Source: Piscicola geometra (lineage: Eukaryota > Annelida > Clitellata > Hirudinida > Piscicolidae). Taken from it: a stretch of 64,000 nucleotides of DNA. Shown here one piece after another: positions 14,503-63,551 of the stretch. The stretch lies in assembly GCA_943735955.1 (NCBI GenBank), contig OX030962.1, forward strand, positions 8,477,462 to 8,541,461. The letters run 5' to 3'. Under the pieces are notes generated by a model. That model was not told the DNA's origin. It was given only the letters and a program-made list of their open reading frames with translations, and ran no database searches. The translations under genes and the position numbers were made by a program. Numbering within the stretch: the stretch's first letter is position 1; each line of letters begins with the position of its first letter.

Positions 14503-17500
14503 TTACTCCTTCCTCTCGATGTAATTGGACGGCAGCATTCCTCTCTCATTGGTCCGCATCACGGTGCCCAGGTACCAGCCGTCGTCGATCTTCTCCACCT
14601 TGCAACCAATGGAGGTTGGAGGTTTGGAAAATGAATTTAAAATAAATCAATAATGAGTTTCAAATGTATTTTAGAACTAAATGGCGCGTTTTAATAAAAA
14701 AGATCCACTAAAGAATAAAGCACTCATCGTCATCAGCACCCGCAATACTATCAGCACCTTCATCATTCTTCATCATCACCACTATCATCATCATCGTAAA
14801 CATCATCATCATCATCACCACAATCATCATCATCACCACCTGTGTGATGACGTCAAATTCTTCAAAGGAAACTTCGTCATCGTCTTGCGCAGTGAAATCA
14901 TACAGAGCCTGCCACACCCCCTGGAGTCATGGTGGTGATGATGATGATGGTGATTACGATGATTATAGGATAAACAATAATACATTTTAAATGCTTTTTA
15001 AATTATACATTTGGATAAATTAAAACATTTTAAAATGAAGATTGTGACGAAAAAGTGAATAAAAATGAATCTAACAGGAAGTGGTGTGGTAATGATCTCG
15101 TCATCATCTCCTTCCAAATTTTGTTGTTGTTGTTGTTTAGTGTTCTCACTTTCCTGTTCGTTTTCTTGTTCGTGATCCTGTTCTTGTTTGTTTGTTTCGT
15201 TGTGGTGTTGTTGTTGTTGTTGTTGTGGTTGAGGGGTGTTGTCATGGTGGTTGTTGTTGAGCAGATCAGGTTTGATGGCCGGTGCTAATGTTCTTGTAGT
15301 GAGATTTTGTTGCTGGTCATGTTTGTTAAATTGTTGCTCTTCTCTTTTGTAGTCATCATCTTTTTGCTTCTTCATTTCTTCTTTCCTCTTCATTTCTTCT
15401 TCTTCTTGTTGTTTTTTCAAGTTTTCATCTTCAAGTTCTAGTTCTTTTCTCTGCTTCTCCTCCTCTTCCTTCTTCTTCAACTCCTCTCTTTTCTCCTCCT
15501 CCTCTTTCTTCTTCAACTCCTCTCTTTTCTCCTCCTCCTCTTTCTTCTTCAACTGCTTTTTCTCCTCCTCTTCCTCCTTCTCTCTCCTTTCCTCCTCTTC
15601 CTCCTTCTCTCTCCTTTCCTCCTCTTCCTCCTTCTCTCTCCTTTCCTCCTCCATCTGCTTTATCGCCTCTTCCTTTCTTCGCAGTTTCTCTGCCTGTTCC
15701 CTGAGTCTTTCTTCCTGCTCTCTCAGAAGTCTTTCCTTCTCCTCAATCTCCTTACGGAGTCTTTTCTTTTCTTCAATCTCTTTACGAAGTCTTTCCCTTT
15801 CCTCCTCTTGTTTCCGAACCTTTTCTTCTTCTTCCTTCTCTCTACGAATCATTTCCAACTTCTCCTCCTCCTGCTCCTTAGCCCTCACTCCTCCATTCAC
15901 TTCACTCTTCTGTCCATTCATCTCCCTCTCCACTGCCACCTTCACCTCCTCCACCAATCCTTCATTCATCCCCTCTCCACCAAACACTCCATCATTCAAT
16001 TCTTCCCTCCTTCCCTCTCCCCTCTCCTCATTCTCTTCTTCCACCCTTCTGACGTCATCTTGACCTACTTTTTTCTTAACTAGGTCATAAGAGGGCGTGA
16101 TCGATCCGTATTGGTTGTTGACGGGGTCATAGTCGGCAATCGAGCCAACCTTTCGGCTCGCCTGGGACACGCCCCCTTCCGCTGCGGCAAAAGAAAAACG
16201 AAACCTATTATTATTATTATTTATATTCTTTTTTATTGTTAATCAAACCTAATATTTTTATTTTTACTGTTCGTATATTGCCCTCTTCACTCTTTACCAC
16301 CACCACCACTACTACTGCCCACCACCACAACCACCAACCACCACCACCACTACTACTGCCCACCACCACAACCACCAACCACCACCACCACTACTACTGC
16401 CCACCACCACAACCACCAACCACCACCACCACTCTCACCCACCACCACCACCACTCTCACCCACCACCACCACCACTCTCACCCATTCACCCACCCTTTC
16501 CACCACCACTCTCACTCATCCACCCACCCTTTCCACCACCACTCTCACCCATCCACCCACCCTTTCCACCACCACTCTCACCCACCCACCCACCCTTTCT
16601 ACCATCACTCTCAGCCATCCACCCACACTTTCCACCACCACTCTCACCCACCCACCCACCCTTTCCACCACCACTCTCACTCACCCACCCACCCTTTCCG
16701 CCATCACTCTCACCCACCCACCCTTTCCACCACCACTCTCACCCACCCACCCACCCTTTCCACCATCACTGGAGTAGACCACAGAGTTTGCGATCGATCT
16801 GGCCGAGACTGGCGAGGGTCTCTCTCCCCCCACTGCCCCCTTCAACCTCTCCACCACCCTTGGCTTTGCTGTCAGAGTGGAGTGTCAAGTTGTTTTTAAG
16901 GGGACATACACACACACACACACACACACACATACATACATACATACACACACACACACACACACACACACACACACACACACACACACACACACACACA
17001 CACACACACCACACACACACACACATACTCAATGGTGGAGTGGGTCTTGGAGTCTTATAATTAGTCTGGCTAATCATCGCATTCACCTGGGATGCCATGA
17101 TGATGATGATGATGCTATTGATTATAATGATGATGCTGATGATAGTAGACCTAATATTATACTACTATAATAGAGCGTACATCTTTGCTGTTACTTTTCT
17201 TTCCTGAAGACCACCCCTTATTGCTATCTTTTCCCTTCCACCACCACTAATCACCTTTGCAATCCCTCCAAATACTTCTCCCTCCCCCTCCATCTCTTTC
17301 CCTCTTTTCTTCTCTTCCATTTCCCTCCTTTCTCCTTCCTTAATTCCCTCTACCTCCCCTCTCCTTCACTCTACCTCAACTCTACCTCCACCCTCCTCCC
17401 CTCGCACCTTCATCACTCGAGCAGTGACCGGGTCGTCTGACACCTCGATCTTGGAGCCTTTGATCTTCTTCTCAAACTCCTCGTGGTAGTGGACCTGGGC

Positions 17501-63551: not shown

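Follow-up and report, generated by a model that had tools for sequence, protein, structure and literature searches.

Vertebrate intronic splicing enhancers include GU-rich and CA-repeat sequences (CELF, hnRNP L), which are known from single regulated exons and are not known to form polarised arrays across large numbers of genes. The AC/GT introns of fish reportedly carry a GT repeat at the 5' end, the repeats at the two ends of the same intron being complementary, and are said, as the title of the work by Lin et al. implies, to need no U-rich tract, their splicing being independent of U2AF2. A passage of a review (PMC7404189) describes AC- and GU-rich structures at the boundaries of some fish introns that most likely draw the splice sites close to each other, and passages of a study in C. 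elegans link the CeRep25B minisatellites to alternative splicing (Glauser, 2014; PMC4039745).

The introns of the leech Piscicola geometra can be compared with each of these systems. As with the vertebrate CELF and hnRNP L enhancers, a GU- or CA-rich tract lies beside the splice site. In common with the fish introns, as outlined in the review passage, AC- and GT-class repeats stand at the intron boundaries; in contrast to the stable cross-intron structure outlined there, the two ends of a leech intron behave independently, the repeat units are far more diverse, and the pairing of an intron's own ends does not rise above a neighbour control. CeRep25B, like the leech arrays, is an intron-enriched tandem repeat, lying near splicing decisions according to the passages cited, and differs in being a near-palindromic 24-bp repeat linked to multiple alternative splicing; abutment of splice sites and polarity are absent from those passages (PMC4039745). 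Among the matches listed by our literature search, which covered titles, the beginnings of abstracts and few subscription journals, none dealt with polarised arrays at annelid intron ends.

Genes and arrays in the window

The window is a 64,000-nucleotide stretch of the P. geometra assembly, which comprises 171,024,195 bases in 66 contigs. Simple repeats are very abundant in this genome: an exact 24-base (GATG)n pattern occurs 20,370 times on the forward and 20,818 times on the reverse strand genome-wide, overlaps counted. A first-pass annotation of the window had reported tandem repeats abutting splice sites in genes that it named LASP, TMEM26-like, MATH-like and polycystin. The first of these names is upheld by a spliced alignment with a hand-entered human LASP1 sequence and the second by a Pfam match to Tmem26 (E 2.5e-7), while the name MATH-like has a weak match behind it (MATH_2, E 0.16). 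The fourth gene was modelled with junctions chosen by eye, giving a 787-aa frame without a stop across 15 phase-consistent GT-AG introns, and its product looks membrane-spanning as judged from the sequence. Pfam searches with three minus-strand frames of 55001-64000 returned a sub-cutoff match to Mucin alone, eight of its exon frames gave sub-cutoff matches to families other than polycystin, and no homologue was found with the joined 787-aa model. With no polycystin or PKD match in frames, exons or joined model, the polycystin name was rejected, and we refer to this gene as transmembrane-like.

The arrays at the splice sites of these genes are listed in the table. At the SH3-exon donor of LASP the sequence reads ...CACACAG|GTGGTGATGATGATG. 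Adjacency of arrays to the 15 splice sites named in the first-pass annotation was borne out at 13, each with a TRF array (score at least 50) within 14 bp; 12 of these belong to the 14 named minus-strand sites, and the thirteenth is the plus-strand site 1120, with (CATC)n beginning at 1124. Site 61201 has (GT)10 (score 42) immediately after it, and site 23840 a poly-G run, the nearest scoring array to the latter being 169 bp away. Of random positions in the window, 16.8% are no more than 30 bp from the edge of an array, and therefore the list of named sites alone proves little.

Genes and splice-site arrays in the window
Feature	Positions	Strand	Basis
LASP-like gene (LIM, nebulin repeats, SH3)	14515..18358	-	spliced alignment, hand-entered human LASP1 sequence, score 420
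GTGATG-type array starting at LASP SH3-exon donor (intron 14839-14599)	14761..14839	-	spliced alignment, TRF
33-bp G/T-rich array at putative LASP linker donor	16467..16770	-	TRF, sequence
G/T-rich array 8 bp inside LASP donor (intron 17686-17495)	17627..17678	-	spliced alignment, TRF
(CATC)n array just past Tmem26-like exon, putative donor	1124..1313	+	Pfam Tmem26 on 795-1355, TRF
CACCCAACCACTC array 10 bp ahead of putative acceptor 22997	23007..23123	-	TRF
(CATC)n array 8 bp ahead of putative acceptor 25465	25473..25591	-	TRF
CA-rich 26-bp minisatellite 13 bp ahead of putative acceptor 26869	26882..27156	-	TRF
(GTA)n array at putative donor 39408	39198..39407	-	TRF
16-exon transmembrane-like gene, 787 aa	55686..63565	-	model, junctions chosen by eye
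GGTTGGGTGG minisatellite from end of exon 55807-55686	55495..55687	-	TRF, exon end from model
(ATCC)n array stopping 5 bp ahead of acceptor, exon 56332-56227	56338..56533	-	gene model, TRF
CCACCACAAC-type minisatellite stopping 7 bp ahead of acceptor, exon 56999-56918	57007..57280	-	gene model, TRF
(GTG)n array 7 bp past donor 59849	59704..59842	-	gene model, TRF
(GT)n array from intron base 1 after exon 61381-61201	61180..61200	-	gene model, TRF
(CA)n array stopping 3 bp ahead of acceptor, exon 61381-61201	61385..61435	-	gene model, TRF
(GTA)n array 13 bp past donor 62645	62343..62632	-	gene model, TRF

The window holds several other features. The LASP linker contains a 414-aa frame (14998-16242, minus strand) of K/E/R-rich repeats, with minisatellites inside the open frame, and a 620-aa open frame rich in N/Q/T/P repeats lies at 10155-12017 (plus strand). 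A LINE-type element is represented at 41710-44829 (plus strand) by a 1039-aa uninterrupted frame with endonuclease and reverse transcriptase (RVT_1, E 1.4e-30), and a stretch resembling, by eye, the zinc finger of a LINE first frame is found at 60500-60900 (minus strand) in an intron of the transmembrane-like gene. An apparent duplication is seen at 19035-19308 and 19778-20050: a 140-bp unit is common to both places, present about twice at each and followed there by (ATTG)n.

Array excess at junctions

A protein-to-genome spliced aligner was applied to myosin (PF00063), kinesin (PF00225) and CCT (PF00118) loci outside the window, with intron calls resting on protein similarity and GT/AG; repeats played no part in them. 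A flank-score filter requiring a good match on both sides kept 204 of 336 unique introns (123 myosin, 45 kinesin and 36 CCT, from 56 partly overlapping loci and hence fewer than 56 genes), with a median length of about 206 bp. The analysis covers one genome, three gene families and junctions predicted by homology. Loci L001-L003 and L033 were left out of the intron set; L003 (G000:C33:71565-73751) encodes a myosin head without introns (domain positions 2-679). This locus lies on a contig of 93 kb, has a G+C content of 0.51 versus about 0.34 in the window, and is possibly DNA of another organism. Six reference proteins were entered by hand, and confirmation of junctions with database proteins is confined to CCT5. 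This gene (locus L069, 9 introns found) encodes a 536-residue protein with full-length identities of 89% to Helobdella robusta and 84% to Capitella teleta; one unnamed database protein shares 93% identity with it, and all nine introns were placed identically with the human, Helobdella, Capitella, chiton and unnamed 93%-identical references. The family profiles of the second round contained the locus being aligned; the main test was repeated on the 118 introns of the first set, called with human references alone, which show an AG|GTGAGT-like donor and a CAG acceptor consensus.

Arrays were taken at a TRF score of at least 50, and at a score of at least 40 for a set of 170 arrays in 223 introns; the null placed each array at random inside its own intron. 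The 223 introns are the 204 from outside together with 19 from the window (15 of the transmembrane-like gene and 4 of LASP), which were modelled after the claim was known and are quoted apart for the excess. They are pooled in for polarity, base composition, tract lengths, end pairing, folding, unit similarity and array-length classes. The LASP linker introns, junction 16770 included, were omitted from the counts because the linker is poorly alignable.

Exactly 100 of the 204 introns contain an array, and arrays make up 33% of intron bases. The first-pass annotation had judged the placement of repeats too regular for chance and had suggested comparing their distances with shuffled positions. 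That comparison, run on the 204 homology-called introns outside the window, yields an excess at every distance: arrays lie within 5 bp of 50 of 408 junctions (16.1 expected; 0/1000 shuffles), within 10 bp of 66 (27.7 expected; 0/3000), within 20 bp of 101 (47.4 expected; 0/1000) and within 30 bp of 111 (63.8 expected; 0/1000). The bootstrap interval for the excess within 10 bp is 1.9 to 3.0, somewhat narrow since it was taken over partly overlapping loci. At this distance the excess is seen in myosin (35 versus 15.6 expected), kinesin (20 versus 6.8) and CCT (11 versus 5.4, reached in 12/3000 shuffles), is kept under stricter flank scores (35 versus 16.8 for the strictest 118 introns), and recurs with the human references alone (31 of 236 junctions versus 11.8 expected in 118 introns; 0/3000). 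It is stronger in introns of at least 250 bp (39 versus 9.8, 4.0-fold) than in shorter ones (27 versus 17.9, 1.5-fold), and short introns are therefore not its cause. In the window itself, arrays come within 30 bp of 8 of the 38 junctions, versus 3.5 expected in the same introns (P 0.0012; 0.004 in a second run).

Arrays commonly start at +1 or extend right up to the acceptor. The remark that the repeat sometimes supplies the donor GT was likewise correct: 21 of the 170 arrays have their first base at intron base 1 or earlier, and 18 have their last base within 2 bp of where the intron ends (score at least 40, 223 introns). Junction-linked arrays are thus confirmed as real in this genome, and they extend beyond the window.

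Opposite base classes at the two intron ends

The arrays are oriented in opposite ways at the two ends of introns, an addition to the first-pass annotation. Read on the RNA strand in the 223 introns, arrays within 15 bp of a donor are G-type in 42 of 49 cases (3 C-type, 4 neither), and those within 15 bp of an acceptor are C-type in 50 of 54 (2 G-type, 2 neither). A typical donor reads caag|GTGTGTGTGT and a typical acceptor ACACACACACAG|. The units are highly diverse, from 2 to about 60 bp, with one base class common to each end. At donors the polarity is sharply local: among nearest arrays 16-40 bp from the donor there are 4 G-type and 8 C-type, and at 16 bp or more, with the distance classes summed, 13 and 17, the polarity being gone. 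At acceptors the C bias reaches to about 80 bp. The set of 118 introns called with human references alone gives 16 G-type to 3 C-type donor arrays, weaker than the full set, and 21 C-type to 0 G-type at acceptors.

Exceptions within 30 bp comprise C-type arrays at donors in 12 of 223 introns and G-type arrays at acceptors in 7, part of which are single arrays spanning to both ends; the (CATC)n array at the putative donor of the Tmem26-like gene, being C-type, is another. The same skew appears in dinucleotide densities, with GT falling from 14.7 per 100 array bases in 5' halves of introns to 0.47 in 3' halves and AC rising from 2.7 to 21.6; AG in 3' halves stands at 0.69. It is equal on either strand of loci, and in averages across introns the curves for G and for C intersect midway along the intron. 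Whole-genome counts of exact patterns, which take in sequence beyond introns too, give 276 occurrences of CAG or AAG followed by (GT)n against 93 for the reversed control, and 1654 against 926 for (AC)nAGR. Introns free of arrays carry the polarity in weaker form, with G at 0.205 and C at 0.131 over +7..+20 of the 5' end, and G at 0.106 and C at 0.284 over -20..-4 of the 3' end.

In most animals a U-rich tract lies ahead of the 3' splice site. In the leech introns that contain arrays, the composition at -20..-4 is A 0.34, C 0.445, G 0.06 and T 0.158, and in array-free introns A 0.30, C 0.28, G 0.11 and T 0.31. A pyrimidine run of at least 8 occurs in the last 40 bases of 17% of introns, and an A/C run of at least 8 in 52%. 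These values lead to the prediction that recognition of the 3' splice site would often proceed here without a U-rich tract. At three loci there are introns that consist mostly of one dinucleotide array and leave scant space near the acceptor for a branch point and pyrimidine tract of the ordinary kind (L022, L026 and L075); (AC)n makes up 461 of 614 bp of one such intron and reaches the acceptor (L022), and (GT)n makes up 336 of 391 bp of another (L026).

Origin and meaning of the polarity

The two intron ends carry their arrays independently. This independence, together with the local reach of the pattern, points to a cause tied to each splice site. We give an even chance to an account in which each splice site favours, independently, a low-complexity tract of fixed base class, slippage makes the arrays, and the wrong class stays rare. 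On the RNA strand, the 5' splice site would favour a G/U-rich tract in the first tens of intron bases and the 3' splice site a C/A-rich tract in the last tens. Replication slippage would expand such tracts into tandem arrays; those of the right class would be tolerated or favoured against the junction and those of the wrong class removed, with the base class of an array mattering much and its repeat unit little. The G/U tracts may bind splicing factors in the manner of GU-rich intronic enhancers downstream of donors, and the C/A-rich tracts may bind splicing factors and substitute for the U-rich polypyrimidine tract. Mutation and selection may each have a part in the pattern. Set against an enhancer role is the loss of donor G polarity already at 16-40 bp, since an enhancer could act further off.

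The main rival account, which we consider rather unlikely, is that the arrays were born by mutation, splice-site sequence (GTGAGT or GTGTGT at donors, ACACAG at acceptors) having seeded slippage and the resulting arrays having no function in splicing. Birth from splice-site sequence or slippage at intron ends had been proposed in the first-pass annotation, and the data divide on it. Short arrays are enriched as much as long ones, the 35 arrays of at most 40 bp giving 11 hits within 10 bp versus 3.7 expected, and the arrays that take in the donor GT (21/170) or reach the intron end to within 2 bp (18/170) are of the kind that such seeding would produce. At acceptors, arrays resemble the -8..-3 bases of their own splice site more than those of other introns (98/5000 permutations, 33 arrays, overlap excluded; 0/5000 with overlap included, where 18 of 45 arrays overlap the bases tested). 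This match fits mutational seeding and a tract favoured by each splice site alike, and it counts against the latter to the extent that simple slippage at the acceptor would be expected to produce it equally. At donors, by contrast, the data do not favour the part of the proposal that looks to the splice-site sequence: the first intron bases do not resemble their own array clearly more than those of others (P 0.24 and 0.06), and arrays far from the donor give P 0.02. Units such as TTG, GATG and the 18-36-mers are unlike GTGAGT, and the polarity is also present in introns without arrays, neither of which mutational birth would lead one to expect.

We regard as improbable a third reading, taken from the fish AC/GT introns, in which the GU-rich and CA-rich ends of one intron pair as RNA and so draw its splice sites close to each other. 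The base classes of the two ends are complementary, and in a few introns the ends pair very strongly, reaching -84 kcal/mol in a (GT)n...(AC)n intron (L058) and again -84 in another locus (L020). In 162 introns the energy of own-end pairing is -40 kcal/mol or lower in 29, versus 21.5 when permuted (P 0.018), and -60 or lower in 9, versus 4.9 (P 0.039). The mean duplex energy, however, is just -23.2 versus -21.9 for random swaps (P 0.044), a test that had stood at P 0.006 with 112 introns, and own ends pair worse than the ends of neighbouring introns at the same locus (88 pairs, Wilcoxon P 0.016, in the reverse direction). Perfect complementarity of at least 10 bp is found 5 times versus 6.6 expected, no excess, and a G-type donor array and a C-type acceptor array occur together in 14 of 223 introns versus 12.1 expected (Fisher P 0.46). 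Computed folds of 147 introns give no significant shortening of the distance along the fold from one splice site to the other against full-shuffle, local-shuffle and chimeric controls (P 0.64, 0.34 and 0.065): the median of this path is shorter in real introns, at 0.060 of intron length versus 0.077-0.110 in the controls, but the mean is longer. With the signal weakening as introns were added and the neighbour and co-occurrence tests against it, we rejected bridging as a general mechanism; it is not the rule here, and a minority of introns may use it.

We think it highly improbable that avoidance of cryptic splice sites alone, by purging AG arrays near acceptors and GT arrays near donors, left an apparent polarity. 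Arrays in 3' halves are indeed poor in AG and GT, but donor-side arrays are full of GT, the reverse of what is predicted, which contradicts avoidance as the sole cause; moreover, no AG would be brought in by (GT)n or (GATG)n close to an acceptor, yet G-type arrays number just 2 of 54 there. Scarcely any weight attaches to transcription-linked strand bias or an artefact of junction calling, since, even though the junctions are predictions and the second-round profile contained the aligned locus, a transcription-wide bias is contradicted by the mid-intron crossing of the G and C curves and by skew on both strands of loci, and an artefact by the agreement of all nine CCT5 introns across five references and by an excess that holds under stricter flanks and with human references alone.

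Returning to a low-complexity tract favoured independently by each splice site, a more far-reaching form of it is conceivable, which we put forward tentatively and at well below even chance. The leech arrays would then be the usual intron-end signal in this leech lineage, independent of the repeat unit, with any G/U-class array marking the intron start and any C/A-class array standing in place of the polypyrimidine tract, continually rewritten by slippage while its base class is kept. Whatever the account, the introns of this leech offer a clean test system for how splice sites shape the evolution of microsatellites, or how microsatellites shape the recognition of splice sites. Their arrays add an annelid to the fish and lamprey in which GT/AC-class repeats occur at intron ends, and a strong, local polarity separates such repeats from the bridging that has been put forward for fish.
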